A stretch of DNA of 28,440 nucleotides from a virus, in IMG/VR virus record IMGVR_UViG_3300027996_000130, positions 1-28,440 of that record; one strand, written 5' to 3'. Shown piece after piece: positions 1,659 to 28,440 of the stretch (positions are counted from its first letter, which is position 1; each line of letters opens with the position of its first letter). Under the pieces are notes generated by a model, which saw only the letters and a list, made by a program, of their open reading frames with translations, made no database searches and was not told the DNA's origin. Made by a program: the position numbers and the translations under genes.

Positions 1659-1942
1659 ACAATACTGAATTAAAATTAGAAATTATAAAAGCAGGTAAAA
1701 AAGCTGTACAAGAACTTATTAAAGTTGCTAATGAAGGTATTTTAAAAAAAGACTTAGATGGGTTATCTCCTGATATTGCAGCAGATAGATTAAAAAATGC
1801 AGCAGCGTCTAAGAAGCTAGCTATATTTGATGCTTTTGAAATTTTAACAAAAATTGAAGAAGAAAACAATATGCTTGATACTAATAATATAGATAATAAA
1901 GCTTCATCGTTTAAAGGGTTTGCTGAAGGAAGGTCAAAATAA
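1655..1942 (+). CDS. Small protein directly upstream of the large terminase; candidate small terminase subunit
   Basis: This 95-aa, Lys/Ala/Glu-rich, helical protein lies between ATGA and TAATG overlaps, so it is translationally coupled to both neighbours. The core (residues 10-70) has QELIKVANEG, then SPDIAADRLKNAAASKKLAIFDAFEIL, followed by an acidic region and a short polar tail. Position immediately before the large terminase and its small helical nature fit a small terminase (DNA-recognition) subunit. No clear helix-turn-helix can be defined by eye, and small terminases diverge quickly, so the role is inferred from context. The stretch LKNAAASKKLAIFDAFEIL looks like an amphipathic helix that could drive oligomer formation. 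An antisense ORF covers it but has no coding character. Confidence 0.72.
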   Translation: MNNTELKLEIIKAGKKAVQELIKVANEGILKKDLDGLSPDIAADRLKNAAASKKLAIFDAFEILTKIEEENNMLDTNNIDNKASSFKGFAEGRSK

Positions 1943-4167
1943 TGTATAAACAAACTTTATATAAAATACTTGAAAATGTTATACCTCAAAAGGTATTAAA
2001 GTCTTACAATAAATCTAAGAAATGGAAGTATGGATATAACAAGGAGTTTGATATAGTTGTTATTTCTAAAGATGGCACGATTGATGAAGTATATGAAATA
2101 CAAAACTTAAAAATTGCTTTACCTCAAAAAAAAGATGTTTATAATTTTGAAGGTAATTATTGGGGTAAATTAGAATATCCTAAAGAGTTAAGTAAAATTA
2201 AAAATGTATTTGATTGGGAAAAATATCCTGATACTTTTAAAGAAAAATGGTATGACTATATTGACAAAGAGTTTGAAAGGCGTGAAGAAGGTTTTTGGTT
2301 TAATAACAAAAACGTTCCTACTTATATTACTGGCTCTCATTACATGTACTTGTGCTGGACCAAAATTGATATTGGGCAGCCAGACTTTAGAGAGTCCAAT
2401 AGATTATTCTATATATTTTGGGAGGCATGCAAAGCGGACGTTCGTTCATACGGAATGTGCTATCTTAAAAACAGGCGTTCAGGCTTTTCGTTTATGTCCT
2501 CATCAGAACTCGTGCATACAGCAACCACCTCACGCGACTCACGTTTTGGTATATTGTCAAAAACAGGGTCGGATGCTAAGAAGATGTTCACCGATAAAGT
2601 CGTACCTATATCCCTCAACTATCCATTCTTCTTCAAACCAATCCAAGACGGAATGGACAGGCCGAAGACGGAGCTTGCGTATAGAATCCCAGCATCCAAA
2701 CTTACCAGAAAGAAACTTGATCAAAATCAAGCCGTTGAGGAACTCGAAGGTCTCGATACCACCATTGACTGGAAAAACACAGGGGACAACTCGTATGATG
2801 GGGAAAAATTAAAAATACTTGCTCATGATGAAAGTGGGAAATGGGAAAGACCTGATAATATATTAAATAACTGGAGGGTTACTAAAACCTGTCTTAGATT
2901 AGGTTCTAGAATTATTGGAAAATGTATGATGGGAAGTACCTCAAATTCTCTTGAAAAAGGAGGAGGTAATTTTAAAAAATTGTATTTAGATTCCGATGTG
3001 GGAAAACGAAACAAGAATGGTCAAACTAAAAGTGGACTATATTCACTTTTCATCACTATGGAATGGAATTATGAAGGATTTATTGATATATATGGGCATC
3101 CTGTATTTGATGAACCTTCAAAAGAATTAGAAGGCCCTTTAGGAGAGGTTATAGACCAAGGAGTTGTTGATCATTGGAATAATGAAGTTGAAGGACTCAA
3201 GTCTGACCCTGATGGATTAAACGAATACTACAGACAATTTCCAAGAACAGAATCACATGCTTTTAGAGATGAAAGCAAACAATCTTTATTTAATTTACAG
3301 AAGTTATATCAACAAATAGATTACAATGATTCTTTAATAAAAGACAGATTTGTAACAAGAGGTTCTTTTTCTTGGAAAAATGGAATACAAGATACAGAAG
3401 TTATTTTTTCTCCAAATGATAGGGGTAGATTTTATGTTACATGGACTCCAAATAAACAATTACAAAATCAATACTATTTTAAAAACGGAATTAAATATCC
3501 TGGTAATGAACACATGGGAGCTTTTGGTTGTGACAGTTATGATATATCAGGTACTGTTGGTGGTGGAGGTTCAAATGGTGCATTACATGGTATGACAAAA
3601 TTCCATATGGATGAAGGGCCAACTAATGAGTTTTTTTTAGAATACATTGCTAGACCACAAACTGCGGAAATATTTTTTGAAGATGTGTTAATGGCGTGTG
3701 TATTTTATGGAATGCCTATTCTTATTGAAAACAACAAACCACGTTTATTATATCATTTTAAGAATAGAGGGTACAGGGGGTTTTCTATGAATAGACCTGA
3801 CAAAGTTTACACAAAACTTTCTAAAACAGAAAAAGAATTAGGTGGTATGCCAAACAGTTCTGAAGATATAAAACAAGCTCACGCAGCAGCTATAGAATCT
3901 TATATTGAAAAACATGTTGGATTTGATTTGTCAGGTGCTTTTAGAGACTCTGATTTAATAGGTTCAATGTATTTTATTAGAACATTAGAAGACTGGGCAA
4001 GGTTTGATATTAACAATAGAACAAAGTTTGATGCGTCAATAAGTTCAGGTTTAGCTATAATGGCTACACAAAAGAATCTCTACCAACCCATTAAAAAGAA
4101 ATCAAAAATAAAACTTAACTTTGCAAGATATGACAATAAGGGAAGTTATAGCCAAATTATACAATAA
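1942..4167 (+). CDS. terL: Terminase large subunit (packaging ATPase and nuclease)
   Basis: This is the DNA-packaging motor: an N-terminal ATPase that pumps DNA into the prohead and a C-terminal RNase H-fold nuclease that cuts the concatemer. At 741 aa it is within the size seen in crAss-like and marine phages. The Walker A-like segment is LKNRRSGFSF (residues 175-184), a deviant P-loop as is usual in terminases. The Walker B with catalytic Glu is KILAHDESGKW (Asp296-Glu297). Candidate nuclease acidic residues are Asp531 in GCDSYDISG, Glu596 in ILIENNK and Asp697 in KFDASISSGLA. It begins one base inside the preceding stop and ends immediately before the portal start with no spacer. About 380 bp in the ATPase half (near 2420-2797) has much more C/G at third positions than the rest of the gene; see the separate entry. 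Confidence 0.93.
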   Translation: MYKQTLYKILENVIPQKVLKSYNKSKKWKYGYNKEFDIVVISKDGTIDEVYEIQNLKIALPQKKDVYNFEGNYWGKLEYPKELSKIKNVFDWEKYPDTFKEKWYDYIDKEFERREEGFWFNNKNVPTYITGSHYMYLCWTKIDIGQPDFRESNRLFYIFWEACKADVRSYGMCYLKNRRSGFSFMSSSELVHTATTSRDSRFGILSKTGSDAKKMFTDKVVPISLNYPFFFKPIQDGMDRPKTELAYRIPASKLTRKKLDQNQAVEELEGLDTTIDWKNTGDNSYDGEKLKILAHDESGKWERPDNILNNWRVTKTCLRLGSRIIGKCMMGSTSNSLEKGGGNFKKLYLDSDVGKRNKNGQTKSGLYSLFITMEWNYEGFIDIYGHPVFDEPSKELEGPLGEVIDQGVVDHWNNEVEGLKSDPDGLNEYYRQFPRTESHAFRDESKQSLFNLQKLYQQIDYNDSLIKDRFVTRGSFSWKNGIQDTEVIFSPNDRGRFYVTWTPNKQLQNQYYFKNGIKYPGNEHMGAFGCDSYDISGTVGGGGSNGALHGMTKFHMDEGPTNEFFLEYIARPQTAEIFFEDVLMACVFYGMPILIENNKPRLLYHFKNRGYRGFSMNRPDKVYTKLSKTEKELGGMPNSSEDIKQAHAAAIESYIEKHVGFDLSGAFRDSDLIGSMYFIRTLEDWARFDINNRTKFDASISSGLAIMATQKNLYQPIKKKSKIKLNFARYDNKGSYSQIIQ
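2420..2797 (+). other. Stretch of atypical codon use inside terL (possible recombination or co-conversion tract)
   Basis: Within the otherwise strongly A/T-ending codons of terL, this stretch (about residues 160-285, from just before Walker A to just before Walker B) switches to C/G-ending codons such as tcc, ctc, ttc, acc, gac, atc and ccg. It then switches back abruptly near 2797. The encoded protein remains a continuous, plausible terminase. The raised GC also removes stops from the +1 frame, leaving a 202-codon open frame (2204-2812), which I do not regard as a gene. A recombined segment from a relative with different codon habits, or a co-conversion tract left by a homing element in terL, would explain it. 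The boundaries are estimates by eye. Confidence 0.55.
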
Positions 4168-6670: not shown

Positions 6671-7360
6671 ATGGCAATAATACCAGCAGGACAAAAGTTT
6701 CACACAGTTTCAGAAAACGTAGATACTACAAATAAAGGGTCAGCTCAAGCAAACGCAGATAGAAAGTCGTTTACAATGCAAGACATTTCAGATACTGCTA
6801 ATGCAGGCGGTGGAGGAGGTATAGTTACAAGTTTAACCACGACTGGAGATTCAGGTGCTTCAACATTAGTAGGGGGAGTTTTAAATGTTCCTGAATATGC
6901 TGATACAGTTACAAGCTTAACAACAACAGGTGATAGCGGTGATGAAGCCACATTAGTGGCAGGAGTTTTAAACATTCCTACACCAAGTGTTTATCCTTTA
7001 GTATGGAGCGCTCAGTTATATCAAGCAGGCACAGGTAATCCAGTTCCACAAGCAAGAGCTGTTACAACTTTAACTACTAGTAAATTAGAAGGAGGAACAA
7101 GATCCGTTCAATTTACCAGGTTAGGTGTTGGGCAATATAAAGCTCAAGTACAATACACAAATAGCAATACAGTAGTAAATAATCTTTCTATAATGTTTGG
7201 AGACTCTATATGTAGAGTAACAGGGAAACAACAGGGTAGTAGTGGTGGTCTTAGTTATAGAGATTGGACTTTTGAAACACCAGGTTTTGATGGTGTGTTA
7301 AGTGATGATTTATTACTAGGAAATAATGGTGGATATTGCACTATAACTTTATATGCTTAA
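6671..7360 (+). CDS. Repeat-containing fibre-like protein between portal and scaffold (possible head fibre or decoration protein)
   Basis: The 229-aa product has a short N-terminal polar region (MAIIPAGQKFHTVSENVDTT), a glycine run (residues 46-50), and two tandem 28-residue repeats starting at residues 52 and 80. Each reads VTSLTTTGDSG followed by a TLVxGVLNxP segment. This repeat type is seen in the shafts of phage fibre and head-fibre proteins, where it forms trimeric beta structure. The remaining part (residues 108-229) is a beta-rich domain with no catalytic motif that ends in GGYCTITLYA. Location within the head module favours a capsid-surface fibre or decoration over a tail fibre, but that is inference. 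The start is preceded by an A-rich leader (aaataaaaaaATGG), typical for Bacteroidetes. Confidence 0.72.
   Translation: MAIIPAGQKFHTVSENVDTTNKGSAQANADRKSFTMQDISDTANAGGGGGIVTSLTTTGDSGASTLVGGVLNVPEYADTVTSLTTTGDSGDEATLVAGVLNIPTPSVYPLVWSAQLYQAGTGNPVPQARAVTTLTTSKLEGGTRSVQFTRLGVGQYKAQVQYTNSNTVVNNLSIMFGDSICRVTGKQQGSSGGLSYRDWTFETPGFDGVLSDDLLLGNNGGYCTITLYA
6824..6988 (+). repeat. Two tandem 84-bp coding repeats (28-aa shaft repeats)
   Basis: The unit beginning gttacaagtttaaccacgac at 6824 recurs from 6908 as a diverged copy (gttacaagcttaacaacaac). Both encode VTSLTTTGDSG plus a TLVxGVLNxP ending. The period is 28 residues. The nucleotide differences are largely synonymous, so the protein repeat appears to be maintained. 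Confidence 0.8.
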
Positions 7361-7411: not shown

Positions 7412-8506
7412 ATGGAATTTAAAGTAAAAGAAGTAAACCCTGTAACAGAAAAATCTGTTCAGGAAGTAGAAGCAAAACTACTTGAAAAACATAATGAAGA
7501 ATTAACACAGGTAGAAACTACTTCTGTTGAAGATACAAGTGTAAATAAAGTAGATGAAGAACCGATAAATGAAAATATCGGCTTAAAAGACGAAGATGTT
7601 CTTTCATATATTAAAACCAGATATAATAAAGACATATCTTCTGTAGATGATTTGTTTGTTGAAAGAGAGCAAACAAAAGATTTACCTGAAGATGTTTCTA
7701 AGTATTTAGATTATAAAAAAAATACAGGGCGTGGATTTGAAGATTTCGTAAAAGTAAATAAAAATTACGATGACTTAAATGATGACCAGGTATTACAAGA
7801 GTACTATTCTTTAACTGAATCAGATTTAGATAGTGAAGATATTTATTATTTAATAGATGAAAAGTTTTCATATGATGAAGACTTAGATGATGAAAAAGAT
7901 ATAAAGAAAAAGAATATTGCTAAAAAAAGAGAACTTTCAAAAGCGAAAACATATCTTAATGAGTTAAAAGAAAAATACAGAGTTCCTCTTGAGTCAAGTG
8001 GGGGTTCTATTTCTGAAGAACAACAAAAAGATTTGCAAGCTTACAAGAGTTATATAGAAAATTCAAAGTCAGCTCAAGAGGTTGCCCAAAGAAAAAGTGA
8101 GTTTTTTCAAAAACAAACTAATGAAGTTTTTAATTCCGAATTTAAAGGTTTTGAGTTCAATGTAGGAAATAAAAATGTAAAATATTCTTATGGTGATTCA
8201 AATGAAATGAAGTCTAAACAAAGTGATTTAAATAATTTTATCGGCAAATATGTTGATGATAATGGTTTAATCAAAGATGCTAAAGGGTGGCATTCGGCAT
8301 TAGCTGCTGCAATGGATCCTCAGCGTTTTGCCAATTATTTTTATGAGCAAGGGAAGTCTGATGCGATAGGTGATGTTAGTAAAAAAAGCAAAAACGTCAA
8401 CATGTCGGTAAGAAAAACTCCCCAAGTGATTGGAGAAGGTGGCTTTAAAGCTAGACAAATTTCAGATACAAGCGGTAGAGGATTAAAAATTAGAAGTAAA
8501 AAATAA
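7412..8506 (+). CDS. Probable capsid scaffolding protein
   Basis: This 364-aa, highly charged protein sits immediately upstream of the major capsid gene, the usual place for a scaffold. The N-terminal two-thirds are acidic and helical with low complexity (VTEKSVQEVEAKLLEKHNEE, DEDLDDEKDIKKKNIAKKRE). A more structured C-terminal part contains GWHSALAAAMDPQRFANYFYEQGKSDAIGDVSKKSKNVNMS and a basic tail (GRGLKIRSKK). A basic helical C-terminus binding the capsid protein is a general feature of phage scaffolds, and the YEQGKSDAI-type segment is familiar from phage scaffold-like proteins. There is no protease motif, so it is not an obvious self-cleaving scaffold-protease fusion. A 24-bp A/T spacer separates it from the capsid gene. 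Confidence 0.8.
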   Translation: MEFKVKEVNPVTEKSVQEVEAKLLEKHNEELTQVETTSVEDTSVNKVDEEPINENIGLKDEDVLSYIKTRYNKDISSVDDLFVEREQTKDLPEDVSKYLDYKKNTGRGFEDFVKVNKNYDDLNDDQVLQEYYSLTESDLDSEDIYYLIDEKFSYDEDLDDEKDIKKKNIAKKRELSKAKTYLNELKEKYRVPLESSGGSISEEQQKDLQAYKSYIENSKSAQEVAQRKSEFFQKQTNEVFNSEFKGFEFNVGNKNVKYSYGDSNEMKSKQSDLNNFIGKYVDDNGLIKDAKGWHSALAAAMDPQRFANYFYEQGKSDAIGDVSKKSKNVNMSVRKTPQVIGEGGFKARQISDTSGRGLKIRSKK

Positions 8507-22388: not shown

Positions 22389-25300
22389 ATGGGTGATTTA
22401 GAAAAACTTTTTAATGTACTAGTTAGAGAGGGTAAATACACAAAATCTTTTGAGGAATTTAAAACTCAATTTTCAGAGAAAGATTACCAAACAAAAGTTT
22501 TTGATGCTGTTGTAAGAGATGGTTTGTATACAAAAGATAAACAATCTTTTTTAAATAAATATACAACTCAGGGAGATGTCGTTGAAAAAAAAAACCCAAT
22601 CGTTACTCCTTCAAATGGGGAAGAGGTTGTTACGGAATCCACTACAGAAACGGAAACAACTCCTGGGTCTTCGGATGGTTTAGAAGCAAACGAAGTAGTT
22701 GAGGTAGACGAACAGGTTGACTTCAGGGAACAGATGAATCCCATGAACGCTTTAATAGGAGACACAGAAAGTTTAATTCCAGAAGAAGAAGTTCAGAGTT
22801 TATTAAAGGAAGATTTAGATACGTTATTACAAAATAGCGATGTACCCTTTAGTGGGTTTTACATGCCAGGGCAAGGTAGAGCTAGGGTTATGAGAAATGC
22901 AAGTAAAATAGTAGATGAAACATTAAAGTTAAAAATAGAGTCAGATCCAAACATTCAAAAAGCATTAGAAGTTGGTTATATAAAGCAATCAGATATAATA
23001 AGTGCTTTAAAGGGAAGTAGAAGCGCTGTCGAAAAACTTCAAGAGATTTCGGTTAAGTCAACTGAAGACAACATATTAAAACTACAAAGTGAAGATTTTA
23101 AGCCTTATGATGATTACTCAGAAACAAAAAACTACGTTGAAACAGAAGAAGACAAGGCAATAAAAACACAAGCTATAAATGCAGTTAATTCTTTTAATGC
23201 TGAAACAGAAAAACTTCTAGATGCAAATCCAGATGCTACTGCACAGGAAATGGAGGCTATATTTCAAAGAGAAGGTTCTCCTACACAGGAACAGTTTGAC
23301 ATTGCAGAAGATGCAGATTACCAACCAACAGGTTTTGAAAATGAACAGCTTGGTAAAATGTATAATCAAGTAGCTCTTAAAGAATTATCAGATACTAATG
23401 AAGGTTTTAGTATAGCTGGTTTTAATGGCTATTTAAATAAAAAAGGATTTTTAGACAAATACAATCAGTTATTAGAAGACGAAACCATTTCTGAAGATGG
23501 AAGATATTACGACTACTCAGGTAATTACAATCCAACCCTTGCAGCAGAAAAACTTAAGTATGATTATTTAAAAAATTATCTTGCTGAATCTGACATGCAA
23601 AGAATTGAAAAAGAAGTTTTACAGTACCAAATAAATAACAATGGTAGGAATCCGTTTCTACATGGTGATACTGATAAAATTAATTTAAAACCTTCAATTA
23701 AAAGCGAAGACCTAAATCAATATATGATTGAGGAATTTAAAACTCTTGCAGCTATTGTAGAGAAACAAAAAGCCAAAACAAAAGAAAACTATCAAAGAGA
23801 ACTAGAGGGAGGCGCAGGTGGAGATAATACTCAATGGCTTCTTGATTCAGCGTATCAAGGTGGTCGTTCTGTATCTGATAGGATAAATAGTACTACTGAG
23901 TGGGGGTACGGATGGTTAGGTATGGATTCTGTTATTGATGAAATTCAAATGAATCAAGCTGAAATAGAACTCAACAGAGATGATATGCTTAGGTATACCT
24001 TTGCAAGTGGTAAAAGTGCTTTTGCTAATGGCAGAGAGTATATGATTGACGATAGGGGAGAGATATATGATTTAGATTTAAAGATAAGAGTTAGTAGTGT
24101 TTTAGAGCCTAGTCAGATTGAAGAAATAAGAAAACAAGTATCAAAAAATGGAGTTGAAACAAGTAGTGTTAGTACTACAGGAGCATTAGTAACAACAGCA
24201 GGTGTAGCCTCTGATATGTTACTTCAGATAGCTCTTACTAGAGGTGTTGGAATGTTAGGTCAAGGATTAAGAGGAGCAGCATTTGCATCTAAATACAAGC
24301 AAGGAAGGTCTATAGTAAAATTATTAGAAAAAGTACCTATGAGGGCCACAACAGCATCAGCTATGATTGCTCAGGGAACTTTAATGGCTAGTTCGTTATC
24401 TTCAGATGTAAGAAAGCAAGCTTTAGCTGCAGGAATGTCAAATGAAGAGGCAGATGAATTAGCATCAACTGCAAGTATGCAGGGTTATGCTTTAGGAGTT
24501 TTAACAGCTCCTATATCTACTCAAAGAATTGCTATGGATAAAATTTTCGGAACAAAAGTAAAAGAAAAGCTTATTCAAAAAAGTATAGATGCATATACTA
24601 AAGGAGCAGGTATTGAAGCGTCTAAAAGTATTTTTAAAAAAGGGTTAGATAAGGTAATAACAAATGGAAGAGTGTACCTTGGAGAAGGTAGTAAAGAGTT
24701 TATTCAAGAAAACATTCAACAAGCAGGACAGGCTTATGTTATTGGTGCTAACATAAATGAGCAAGCAGGCCAAGAAATAATGCGAGATACTATAAGCGGA
24801 GATGAATTTATGAACACATCCATAATCTCACTAACAGCAGGTGTTTTTATGCCCTTTGCAGGAGATTTAAAAACAGGTACTGTTAATTCTTTTAAAGTTA
24901 AAAGCAGAGGTTTTCAGGCTGTCGATCAAATGAAGGCTTTAGCTTTAATGGCTAATAATTCGGATAAAACAAAACAACTTTTAGACTCACAAGTTAAACA
25001 AGGAGTATATACACCAGAACAGGTAGAAAATATAATGGCTGATGTAGAGATATACAAAAGCACGATAAATGGATTACCTCCTAATTTAAGTGCAGAAACC
25101 TCTTTGTCGGTTATGAGTGACTTAGCTAAAATAAAAGAACTTGAAGCTAGAAAGAAAAAAGAAAACCCTGCTTTTCCAGATTTTAGAACTGATGTAGAAA
25201 TACAGAAATTAAAAAATAGAATAATTAAGAATTCTAACTTTGACTTTATTAATAATAAAGAGAAGCAAAAATTCATGGATAATGCAGGTAAAGAGTTAGT

Positions 25301-28300
25301 TGCAGAGAAAGAAGCTGCAGGTGAAAAAAACTACAAAATAAATAATAGCGAAATTAGAAATAGAGCTGTAGAGAACTTTAACAAGTTGTCAATAGAAGAA
25401 ATGCAGGCTTTAGCTTCTCCAGACCAACAAAAAGAATCAGAAACTAAAACAGATAAGCAAGTGCCTGTGACACAAGCACAAAAGGATTTATTTGGAGAAA
25501 CTCATACAGATGAAAATTTAAAAACATCATCTAATCCTAAAGGAGAAGCAAATATATCAAACATTACAAGCCTCGATAAAGAAGGGGTATCAACAGCAAC
25601 TTATGTAAATCCAGAAACAGGTAGTGTAGATGCTATCATAAGTAGTAAAGACAAGAAAAACTTTGTTGGATATGTTAGGATTTATGAAAATGGTAAGCCA
25701 ACAAATATGTTCTCTACTAAGATGGAGTCTACAGGGGGTGCGTTTAAGAATATGATTACATCTGCTGATACTAATCTACCTGATGGAGCTAAAGTTCTTC
25801 CAGGTAAAACCATATCTGAAGGAGGTCTTAAGTCTTTTAATAATTCTAAATTAGATGTAGAGACTGATTCAGATGGTAATGTTGTTACAAGAGAAGTAGA
25901 TTATAGCGATGCAACAAAAGAGACTGTAAAGCAAAAAGGAGATAGAGCTTTTGGTAAATTTGTAACTCCTATTAAGTCGGAAGCAGAAGCAGAGATTGTT
26001 AAAATACAAAAAGCATATCCTGGAATAGAAGCAAGAATAGTAAAAAGTGGTTTGTCTTTTGAGATAAAAATAGACTTACCTGTATTAATTAAAACAGAAA
26101 CAGATGCCGTTCAAAAGCCAAGCACAGAGAAGCAAGTGTTACCAAATGATGCAACAAGCCAAACAGATGGGGCAGACTCCGAAGTGGAACTGCAGCAAGT
26201 GGGAAAAGGAGACGTTGGGACAGATACCGACACGCAAGTCGAAGAAGGTGAAACGCAAACCGATACAACTAGCGACAAGACTGCGGAGACAGATACTGAA
26301 CAGTTAACAGAAGGAGAAAAGTATTTAGAATCCAAAAGAAAAATATTAGAAGATTTACAAGCAAAAGATAAGTCTCTTAGAAATGAAGACGGATCTGTTC
26401 CTAAAGAAAATCAAAAAGAATGGAAGGAAAATAGAAAAGCAATAACTGATGCTTCTGAGGACTTACTAACTGGAGATACTACTGGAAAAAATTTCGGAGC
26501 TATGATGAGTTATGAAGAAGGTTCTACAGACCCTACAGCAACAAAATCGGATGAACAAATTAAAAAAAATGAAAACGAAATTGAAGCAGTAATACAGAGG
26601 GTTATTGATGGAAAAATAACGGCTGAAGATGCTACACAATATATTGCTCAAAAGTTTGGATTTTATGTAGACCAAGTAAATGTTTTATCTAGATATATAG
26701 CCGAAAGAAGTGATTCAAGTTTTCCTGAAATTGGAAACAACAAGTCTAAATTTAAAGACTGGAGAAAAGGAAACAAAACGACAGATACTGAACAAGTAGT
26801 AAAAAAAACAAAGACAAATGAAAAAACAAAACAACAAGTACAATCCAAACGCTCCAGAGACGGAGGAACAGGACGGACTGCAATCAGCAAAACTACGCCT
26901 CTTCAAGGCACTCCAATCATCAAAGGTGCAACCGGACCAGATATACAGCTCGTATCCGTTGCTGAAAAATATGCAAATGACAACAACATTAAACTCAAAA
27001 GACAAGGAGAATATGTTGAGGTAGATCCTGTTAGAGCTAAAAGAATAGCTGATGCTTACACAGAAATGGCTAACGATCCTCAAAATCCAAAAGTAAAGGA
27101 AGCCTATGCTGAATTAATAAAACAAACTAAAGCTCAATATGAAGCTTTAGTTGAAGCAGGTTATAAGTTTTGGTTTATTGACTTAAACAATTCTAAAAAT
27201 ATTGAATACATTTCGTCTCCATTTAATGCAATGCGTGATTTGCGTAAAAATAAAGAAATGGGAGTTTTCCCAACAGATTTAGGTTTTGGTTCAGATGAAG
27301 ATGTTGATGTTTCTCAAAATCCTTTACTAGAAGACACAGGTCTAAAATGGCCGGTTGGAGGATTGAATGGAGAAACCAAATCTGTTACAGCTAATGATTT
27401 ATTTAGAGCTGTCCATGATGCTTTTGGCCATGGATTAGAAGGGGCAGGATTTAGAGCAAGAGGAGAGGAGAATGCTTGGCAAGCTCATTCTAGATTATTT
27501 ACAGGAGCTGCTATTGGTGCAATGACAAGTGAAACAAGAGGACAAAACTCTTGGGTAAATTTTGGCCCTAATGGGGAATCAAATAGAACTGCAAGTGCAG
27601 AGGATACGGTTTTTGCAGATCAAAAAGTAGGATTAATGCCTGAGTGGACTTGGTCTGAAGGTCGTTCAGAAGATATGCAGTCTCCAAAAGTGATGAGTGT
27701 GAACAATGAACTCGATAATAAGATTGAGTCATTTTCAAGAAGAATGGCTGATGCTGATACTTCTAACGAATTATCTGATGAAGCTATAGAATTTTATTCA
27801 GAGAATCAAGAAGCTATAGATAAAAGAGTTTCTGAAATACGAAAAGAATCACCTAAAGATAAATCAAAAACAAGAAGACTAGCTAATAAAATAGCAAAAG
27901 GAGAGACTAACTTTTCAAATGAGCAGATAGATTTATATGCTGCTAATGAAGCAGAAGTACAGGCTGAGGTAGAAGCCATTGCTAAAACCAATAGTCAAAC
28001 TGTAACGGCTGATACTTATAAAGGTATTTTAAAATCTATAAAGAGTACAACTAGAACCGACAAAGCAAGACGAGAAGGAGAGAATGCTCAACGTAAAAGA
28101 TTTTGGAAAGCTTGGAACAAGGCCAACAGAGAAGGTAAACAAGATTTAAAAACTAAAAGAAAAAATCTTAATGACCAGATAAAGACATATGCTAAAGGTA
28201 AAAAAGGAACTATTACCGCAGCTCAAACAAGAGCAGTTATAAATATGGTTAATAGTGTAAACCTTGACAATGAATTAGCTGTACAAAAATTAATAGATTA

Positions 28301-28440
28301 CTCTGAGAAAATTTTTAATGATGCAGACTTTGCTGTTAAAGAAGCACAGGCTATTAAACTTAATTCAGATGTAACAAAGAAACTTAATTCTGGAGCTTAT
28401 GGTTTAAATACAGACTTAAATACAAGATCGTCAAATATTT
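22389..28440 (+). CDS. Giant polyvalent-type protein, more than 2017 codons, 3' end outside window
   Basis: The frame from the ATG at 22389 (A-rich leader ataaaaaaATGG) has no stop to the window end. Residues 7-58 hold two diverged copies of a short motif (LFNVLVREGKYTKSFEEF and VFDAVVRDGLYTKDKQSF), followed by an acidic Thr/Glu linker. Small-residue hydrophobic stretches occur near 596-632, 654-680, 697-712 and 811-826, compatible with membrane interaction. Residues about 1070-1180 contain a compact domain with FVGYVRIYENGKPTNMFSTK. A Thr/Asp/Glu linker at 1239-1310 is overprinted by another ORF. Residues 1504-1765 form a conserved domain with VAEKYANDNNIK, DPVRAKRIADAY, HDAFGHG (1676-1682), GEENAWQAHSRLF and SETRGQNSW. 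The rest is basic and helical. This many-domain build fits the large polyvalent proteins of phages, thought to be packaged and ejected to protect incoming DNA or disable the host. The HDxFGH His/Asp residues could bind metal. The activity is unknown. Confidence 0.85.
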   Translation, partial: MGDLEKLFNVLVREGKYTKSFEEFKTQFSEKDYQTKVFDAVVRDGLYTKDKQSFLNKYTTQGDVVEKKNPIVTPSNGEEVVTESTTETETTPGSSDGLEANEVVEVDEQVDFREQMNPMNALIGDTESLIPEEEVQSLLKEDLDTLLQNSDVPFSGFYMPGQGRARVMRNASKIVDETLKLKIESDPNIQKALEVGYIKQSDIISALKGSRSAVEKLQEISVKSTEDNILKLQSEDFKPYDDYSETKNYVETEEDKAIKTQAINAVNSFNAETEKLLDANPDATAQEMEAIFQREGSPTQEQFDIAEDADYQPTGFENEQLGKMYNQVALKELSDTNEGFSIAGFNGYLNKKGFLDKYNQLLEDETISEDGRYYDYSGNYNPTLAAEKLKYDYLKNYLAESDMQRIEKEVLQYQINNNGRNPFLHGDTDKINLKPSIKSEDLNQYMIEEFKTLAAIVEKQKAKTKENYQRELEGGAGGDNTQWLLDSAYQGGRSVSDRINSTTEWGYGWLGMDSVIDEIQMNQAEIELNRDDMLRYTFASGKSAFANGREYMIDDRGEIYDLDLKIRVSSVLEPSQIEEIRKQVSKNGVETSSVSTTGALVTTAGVASDMLLQIALTRGVGMLGQGLRGAAFASKYKQGRSIVKLLEKVPMRATTASAMIAQGTLMASSLSSDVRKQALAAGMSNEEADELASTASMQGYALGVLTAPISTQRIAMDKIFGTKVKEKLIQKSIDAYTKGAGIEASKSIFKKGLDKVITNGRVYLGEGSKEFIQENIQQAGQAYVIGANINEQAGQEIMRDTISGDEFMNTSIISLTAGVFMPFAGDLKTGTVNSFKVKSRGFQAVDQMKALALMANNSDKTKQLLDSQVKQGVYTPEQVENIMADVEIYKSTINGLPPNLSAETSLSVMSDLAKIKELEARKKKENPAFPDFRTDVEIQKLKNRIIKNSNFDFINNKEKQKFMDNAGKELVAEKEAAGEKNYKINNSEIRNRAVENFNKLSIEEMQALASPDQQKESETKTDKQVPVTQAQKDLFGETHTDENLKTSSNPKGEANISNITSLDKEGVSTATYVNPETGSVDAIISSKDKKNFVGYVRIYENGKPTNMFSTKMESTGGAFKNMITSADTNLPDGAKVLPGKTISEGGLKSFNNSKLDVETDSDGNVVTREVDYSDATKETVKQKGDRAFGKFVTPIKSEAEAEIVKIQKAYPGIEARIVKSGLSFEIKIDLPVLIKTETDAVQKPSTEKQVLPNDATSQTDGADSEVELQQVGKGDVGTDTDTQVEEGETQTDTTSDKTAETDTEQLTEGEKYLESKRKILEDLQAKDKSLRNEDGSVPKENQKEWKENRKAITDASEDLLTGDTTGKNFGAMMSYEEGSTDPTATKSDEQIKKNENEIEAVIQRVIDGKITAEDATQYIAQKFGFYVDQVNVLSRYIAERSDSSFPEIGNNKSKFKDWRKGNKTTDTEQVVKKTKTNEKTKQQVQSKRSRDGGTGRTAISKTTPLQGTPIIKGATGPDIQLVSVAEKYANDNNIKLKRQGEYVEVDPVRAKRIADAYTEMANDPQNPKVKEAYAELIKQTKAQYEALVEAGYKFWFIDLNNSKNIEYISSPFNAMRDLRKNKEMGVFPTDLGFGSDEDVDVSQNPLLEDTGLKWPVGGLNGETKSVTANDLFRAVHDAFGHGLEGAGFRARGEENAWQAHSRLFTGAAIGAMTSETRGQNSWVNFGPNGESNRTASAEDTVFADQKVGLMPEWTWSEGRSEDMQSPKVMSVNNELDNKIESFSRRMADADTSNELSDEAIEFYSENQEAIDKRVSEIRKESPKDKSKTRRLANKIAKGETNFSNEQIDLYAANEAEVQAEVEAIAKTNSQTVTADTYKGILKSIKSTTRTDKARREGENAQRKRFWKAWNKANREGKQDLKTKRKNLNDQIKTYAKGKKGTITAAQTRAVINMVNSVNLDNELAVQKLIDYSEKIFNDADFAVKEAQAIKLNSDVTKKLNSGAYGLNTDLNTRSSNI
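22407..22562 (+). repeat. Two diverged 22-aa motifs at the N-terminus of the giant protein
   Basis: Residues 7-28 and 37-58 align with a 30-residue period: L/V-F-x-x-V/L-V-R-E/D-G-K/L-Y-T-K-S/D-x-x-x-F. The pattern looks like a small helical module used at the N-termini of big Bacteroidetes phage proteins. The nucleotide identity is low, so this is an old protein-level duplication. Confidence 0.65.
26104..26307 (+). CDS. Overprinted small ORF, 67 aa, MPFKSQAQR-type phage protein, in +1 frame of the giant gene
   Basis: This ORF lies wholly inside the giant gene, one base ahead of its frame. The product starts MPFKSQAQRSKCYQMMQQAK and continues with TPKWNCSKWEKETLG and a strongly basic tail (RKSKKVKRKP). 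Small phage proteins beginning MPFKS-x-AQR, with KCY, then W-x-C and a W-x-K/H-x-T segment before a Lys-rich tail, are a type I recognise from phage and Bacteroidetes genomes; their function is unknown. Cys12 and Cys30 with nearby Trp28/Trp33 could support a small metal-binding or DNA-associated fold. The main frame here is only an acidic Thr/Asp/Gln/Glu linker. GC is locally raised, with many G-ending codons in this frame. The ATG has an A-rich leader (aaaacagaaacag) suited to Bacteroidetes initiation. Translation is inferred, not shown. Confidence 0.6.
   Translation: MPFKSQAQRSKCYQMMQQAKQMGQTPKWNCSKWEKETLGQIPTRKSKKVKRKPIQLATRLRRQILNS
26818..27024 (+). other. Second open +1 frame inside the giant gene, 68 codons, coding status uncertain
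   Basis: Read one base ahead of the giant frame, 26818-27024 gives a protein starting MKKQNNKYNPNAPETEEQDG with LQSAKLRLFKALQSS, a plausible amphipathic helix, then DQIYSSYPLLKNM. Unlike the ORF at 26104 I do not recognise a family. The main frame is itself conserved-looking here (start of the HDxFGH domain), yet uses unusual C-ending codons (ctc, atc, acc, tcc) between about 26850 and 26990. The local GC rise alone could keep the other frame open. Confidence 0.3.

Follow-up and report, generated by a model that had tools for sequence, protein, structure and literature searches.

The stretch of viral DNA analysed here (the window, 28,440 nucleotides) very likely contains, at positions 26104–26307 of the plus strand, a genuine small gene that was present in this DNA before the giant reading frame surrounding it and that is most likely translated from its own ATG, its expression being inferred. 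The gene encodes a Lys/Arg-rich protein of 67 residues (MPFKSQAQRSKCYQMMQQAKQMGQTPKWNCSKWEKETLGQIPTRKSKKVKRKPIQLATRLRRQILNS, followed by a stop codon) and lies wholly inside the giant open reading frame at 22389–28439, on the same strand and in its +1 frame, so that the criterion of a fully embedded alternative-frame gene is met. The giant host frame spans 2017 amino acids within the window, at whose 3' end it is still open; its homologue in a near-identical relative (L333) measures 3104 residues. Giant codons 1239–1306 overlap the small gene and are read there as an acidic Thr/Asp/Glu/Gln linker. The initial annotation had proposed a 67-codon frame nested in this manner, which the translation and the ORF positions confirm, and had further proposed that two proteins share this DNA, the linker being the by-product of a captured gene; the latter claim also held, in that the codon-position data described below fit it, with the reservation that expression is not shown. 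It had moreover called the giant ‘polyvalent’, a designation that is weakly supported, its sole basis being resemblance to a gene that bears the annotation ‘large polyvalent protein’; the giants that were scanned contain no Pfam domain above cut-off and no recognised effector domain.

How long the frame stays open carries no weight by itself. When the synonymous codons of the giant are permuted, a +1 run as long as this one appears somewhere with P=0.21 and the 26104–26307 stretch itself remains open with P=0.11, i.e. the length alone is unremarkable (P about 0.1–0.2), and ORF-length statistics were therefore dropped as evidence. What goes beyond chance is the homology of the small frame from residue 1, the codon-position constraint and the existence of stand-alone homologues. 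Thus, the earlier argument that a match at the very first residues speaks against a chance frame held, though not by virtue of length. The local G+C content at 26104–26307 is approximately 0.50 versus 0.33 on either side and, over 117 unique nested relatives, it is 0.50 in the nested small genes versus 0.345.

A first scan of viral contigs returned 73 loci encoding the small protein from residue 1. When a diverged member served as the query of another scan, 407 candidate relatives were obtained, 80 of which were kept. With one HMM, 132 hits were nested, the host always being in the same relative frame; a few of them are Acidobacteria loci that were judged to be chance overlaps and excluded, leaving more than 120 nested loci that encode the small protein from its ATG. 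Identity to the small protein is 97% in L003 and declines to about 40% among diverged relatives, with candidate E values down to 3e-39, across many contigs and isolate genomes, and the features of the MPFKS-type family are met (an MP-F/Y-x-S-x-x-Q N-terminus, a conserved Trp, a basic tail and a length of about 40–75 aa). An assembly error as the source of the arrangement was rejected: 68 records of the isolated Flavobacterium phage elemo hold the homologous stretch, and the one examined in detail (L002) shows the small gene in the same nested frame. In the elemo record NC_055853.1 the nested ATG is at position 52379, and the small protein of this phage measures 42 aa. The hosts of isolated relatives belong to Flavobacterium, Cellulophaga, Tenacibaculum and Maribacter; no match to the small gene was obtained in the more distant relatives Cellulophaga phi18:3 and Maribacter Panino. 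In the elemo and ctfjg026 records the host gene alone is annotated across the small gene, and no report of this nested gene was found in the open-access literature searched.

The small frame is intact in all nested relatives found except L081, a single Bacteroidetes MAG contig in which the frame (3137–3340) carries an in-frame stop (AKQKG*TPKW) that may reflect either an error or a pseudogene. The apparent overlaps in the Acidobacteria MAG contigs L082–L095 were judged to be chance long frames in GC-rich DNA and were not counted as nested; a conserved protein encoded by these contigs, MPFKSQAQRRKFAxLLVxGKIS...WNRETG, is of the same broad type and may be a cellular relative.

The pattern of substitutions identifies the frame under selection. 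Inside the overlap, substitutions are distributed over host codon positions 1/2/3 as.49/.30/.21 (387 equal-length pairs), as opposed to.28/.17/.56 and.28/.14/.58 in the two 240-base flanks, and within the small frame it is the third codon positions that vary most freely. In three separate groups, conservation is higher in the small frame than in the host frame for 350/351, 132/136 and 120/120 pairs and, by these codon-position tests, the nested frame is under purifying selection as a protein. Given the greater conservation of the small frame and the inverted codon-position pattern, the linker of the giant is largely dictated by the small protein; in other words, the small frame is, with little doubt, the constrained one and the acidic linker is largely its by-product. 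The two products are opposite in charge per residue (+0.27 for the small protein, with a mean pI of 11.2, versus −0.21 for the host linker). In the group of the window, the median nucleotide identity is 0.93–0.77 inside the gene, falls to about 0.37 within 30 nucleotides past its stop and is intermediate (0.53) in the 30-base leader; the profile was compared without gaps, which exaggerates the divergence further out.

Two kinds of host have been found, namely giants of approximately 1000–3600 aa and proteins of approximately 400 aa coded between the portal and capsid genes, whose position makes it likely that they are scaffold-like. The latter are homologous to the 364-residue protein in the scaffold position of the window (7412–8506, plus strand, phrog_16786), which itself has no nested gene, its sister-clade homologues having one in the N-terminal part. 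The homologue of these hosts in Cellulophaga phi18:3 bears no proteomics note; the nearby portal and virion structural proteins have one. To avoid circularity, the C-terminal part alone was used to fetch scaffold homologues, independently of the small gene: the HMM detects a nested gene in 42/80 and, when 27 loci scored ‘none’ were checked singly, at least 17 were found to have a strongly diverged MP-start ORF in the same place and frame (MPFKHKRQMIAM..., MPIRSQAQW..., MPFQSKKQE...). The scaffold homologues closest to that of the window carry the small gene in 0/80 cases. Giants fetched by a domain 3' of the small gene carry it in 15/57 cases; since most of the giants fetched in this way are without it, the giant does not depend on the small gene.

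Two further frames were observed in this context. In one group of scaffold genes a second +1-frame ORF (MKEMILTRAEWQEAMKLPLP...) lies just past the small gene (L321:3897, L325, L328, L332 and L317); its similarity between L317 and L321 may reflect host conservation only. In the window, a 229-aa ORF (6671–7360) between the portal and the scaffold-like gene has neither a PHROG match nor a relative among the fetched loci.

The question of whether relatives carry the small gene separately was answered positively. It is not nested in L073–L075 and L176–L188, where it lies, at the two junctions examined (L073 and L184), directly behind the stop codon of the giant; it also stands alone in L216 and L239, and in L058, here between the portal and capsid genes. 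Annotated stand-alone homologues are found in phage 023Pt_psg01 (URG13095), between the portal and capsid genes, and in Streptomyces phage FlowerPower (gp48), adjoining a holin gene. Both have the same N-terminal motif, conserved Trp, Lys/Arg-rich tail and similar size, but they are ordinary non-nested genes, and their function is likewise unknown. Stand-alone homologues begin at the same ATG as the nested copies, and in those of the family (L073–L075, L176–L188) stops interrupt the host-phase frame, so that these sequences do not by themselves guarantee an open host frame. The proposal of the initial annotation would have been refuted by the absence of any homologue in a primary frame, together with relatives having a broken +1 frame and a conserved giant frame. 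This was not the case: genes of the L073 type, that of 023Pt_psg01 and that of FlowerPower exist, and it is the giant frame that varies freely, the small one being intact except in L081.

As to how the small protein would be made, the initial annotation had left open initiation at its own start and +1 frameshifting from the giant. The nested ATG is invariant among the aligned homologues and is preceded by an A-rich, unstructured leader (26084–26103 of the plus strand in the window). In a set of 115 nested leaders, A occurs more often at −13 to −11, −6 and −5 and, less markedly, at −3 than it does at same-phase host ATGs (.90/.83/.83/.80/.61 at −13/−12/−11/−6/−3 versus a background of.34–.41), and the start region has an MFE of −0.75 versus −4.1. 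In Flavobacterium johnsoniae, A at −3, −6, −12 and −13 are measured positive determinants of initiation (PMC6847099). The leader statistics come from related sequences that are not phylogenetically independent. In the majority of nested loci a stop closes the small frame not far ahead of the ATG, often with just 2–6 open codons in between, and no shared slippery string was visible on inspection of the nested leaders, no formal motif test having been made. Thus, the own-start option fits both the leader and the invariant ATG, and the frameshift option is disfavoured by these and by the few upstream open codons; that the Flavobacterium-type leader favours separate initiation is likely, as an inference from the leader without expression data.

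Comparison of the window with L333 reveals a module of the giant that begins where the small gene ends. Upstream, and again from 26811 onwards, the two are mostly 85–100% identical, while from the 3' end of the small gene approximately 500 bp are swapped for unrelated sequence (26310–26810 of the plus strand, with 8–18% amino acid identity in those bins that are fully diverged), which places a module edge at or close to the point where the small gene ends. L333 also contains a dead relic of the small gene (L333:5586–5619, also present in L334 and L335), namely its first 34 nucleotides, identical to those of a live copy of the L009 type, followed by a stop in the small frame, with the host frame open. 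The fragment in L003 and L333 is 675 bases upstream of the live copy, and the window lacks the relic by a clean in-frame gap at 25454/25455. In the window itself no relic could be demonstrated, the score being within that of shuffles, so that the relic is shown in L333–L335 only. The L070 and L071 giants are about 94% identical except that a 2-base difference (at ~4970) splits that of L070 just upstream of an intact small gene.

A full-length copy of the small gene was detected by profile search in 31/32 genome records of these phages. The exception is the L266 record, where a weak, diverged match in the scaffold gene, comparable to the diverged MP-start ORFs mentioned above, is below threshold; the L003 record has an extra 15-residue fragment. 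Most of these phages share 66–100% identity in the terminase large subunit (1942–4167 of the window, plus strand, phrog_6681), elemo and the L210 record being more distant. In the terminase tree the scaffold-nested state forms one clade (12 rows, SH-aLRT 100) that is sister to the giant-nested clade of the window, and the stand-alone state arises inside giant-nested clades; 3 changes suffice to explain the location states, versus 15.5 with shuffled labels. That the small gene has changed host gene within one family of marine bacterial viruses can thus be stated with high confidence. No root was inferred for the tree, whose two most distant rows are on long branches, so that the direction of change is an inference, as is the order of events with an older small gene and a later giant frame. 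In one record (L340, G031:C1:55289–58486) the terminase matches fall in two pieces approximately 1 kb apart within one 1083-aa open frame, which is intein-like.

Of the explanations other than a separately translated small gene, +1 ribosomal frameshifting from the giant, yielding an alternative basic C-terminus and no separate protein, is the one that the frame relation would suggest, because all nested cases have the small frame at +1 relative to the host, and some open codons, if few, precede the ATG. It is very unlikely in view of the invariant ATG, of the often only 2–6 open codons upstream without a visible shared slippery string, of the initiation determinants in the leader and of the stand-alone copies that begin at the same ATG. 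Alternatively, the linker of the giant could be the selected product and the +1 ORF a passive by-product, as the more than 2000 open codons of the giant frame and the similar-looking linker peptide in different hosts might indicate. This is practically ruled out, being already contradicted by the codon-position test: changes fall mainly on host codon position 1 and least on position 3, with the flanks reversed, the small frame is the more conserved in nearly every pair of the three groups and stand-alone copies exist without a host.

A conserved DNA or RNA element, such as a recombination site or a packaging or regulatory signal, rather than a protein, would account for the coincidence of module edges and the recombination relic with the small gene. 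However, it is at its third positions that the small frame changes most freely, length changes preserve that frame and diverged forms retain the protein motif MP-x-x-S-x-x-Q...W...KK with the intervening sequence greatly changed, so that this possibility, too, appears remote. Finally, a chance open frame resembling a phage protein family would be compatible with the ORF length, which is expected by chance, but it is contradicted by the degree and the spread of the homology over many contigs and isolate genomes, and can be all but dismissed. The small gene thus remains the preferred reading.

According to this preferred reading, translation of the small gene most likely starts at its own ATG within the late structural mRNA, and the giant frame runs one base out of step through the older small gene. 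Because the small protein is rich in Lys and Arg, encoded by AAR/AGR codons, the shifted frame can avoid stops, and it yields a linker that is acidic, probably disordered and tolerated by the giant. As the small gene sits in their message, the small protein is proposed to be made together with the scaffold or the giant protein.

The AlphaFold2 model predicts a small helical protein (mean pLDDT 85; helices 6–22, 30–37 and 56–66), and the mean pI of the family is about 11. Searches of the PDB by sequence and by fold returned nothing for the small protein, the best viral fold matches (E about 0.01) being no more than uncharacterised proteins with the labels Harvfovirus and Terrestrivirus. Among curated families (PHROG, Pfam, NCBIfam) no informative match was obtained; the best ones, phrog_1375 (7.5e-4) and PF12411 (3.7e-4), are found for 5/70 members each and are both uninformative. 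The location in scaffold and giant genes, the stand-alone copies in the head module, the high charge and the near-universal presence have led us to consider, as the best guess, a basic protein that acts late in assembly and is associated with DNA or the virion; in the absence of expression or functional data, this inference is rated somewhat less likely than not. In a bolder reading, which is no more than possible, a core out-of-frame gene moves with its own leader between unrelated hosts, forcing acidic linkers upon them, and its conserved ends serve as recombination joints for the modules of the giant; the basic protein may, in addition, bind the acidic linker with which it shares its coding DNA.

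Fully nested alternative-frame genes are well known in phages, as exemplified by lambda Rz1 in Rz, by B, K and E of phiX174 and by the leviviral lysis genes. The present gene resembles them in being a complete small gene, with an inferred start of its own, (largely) inside a larger gene in another frame, but it differs in having stand-alone homologues, at least two unrelated host genes within one phage family and a host frame that is seemingly the later one. Overprinting in viruses yields two proteins from one DNA, one frame arising de novo (PMC8227390); usually the nested small gene is the new one, whereas here, to judge from the data, the newer reading is the host linker. The giants share with polyvalent proteins (PMC5512222) a very large and modular character, and one of their homologues is annotated as such, but no recognised effector domain was found in those scanned; a term search of that paper returned nothing on overlapping or alternative frames. 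What is likely to be new, as a variant of nested overlapping genes, is an older small gene, nested out of frame, that changes its host gene. Overprinting is usually thought of as a new small gene within an old large one, and the comparative data obtained here point the opposite way, more than once. A phage protein that is widespread has been overlooked by annotation, and with giant-nested, scaffold-nested, stand-alone and relic states in one phage family, along with cultured isolates, these phages offer a natural system suited to asking how genes enter and leave other genes.
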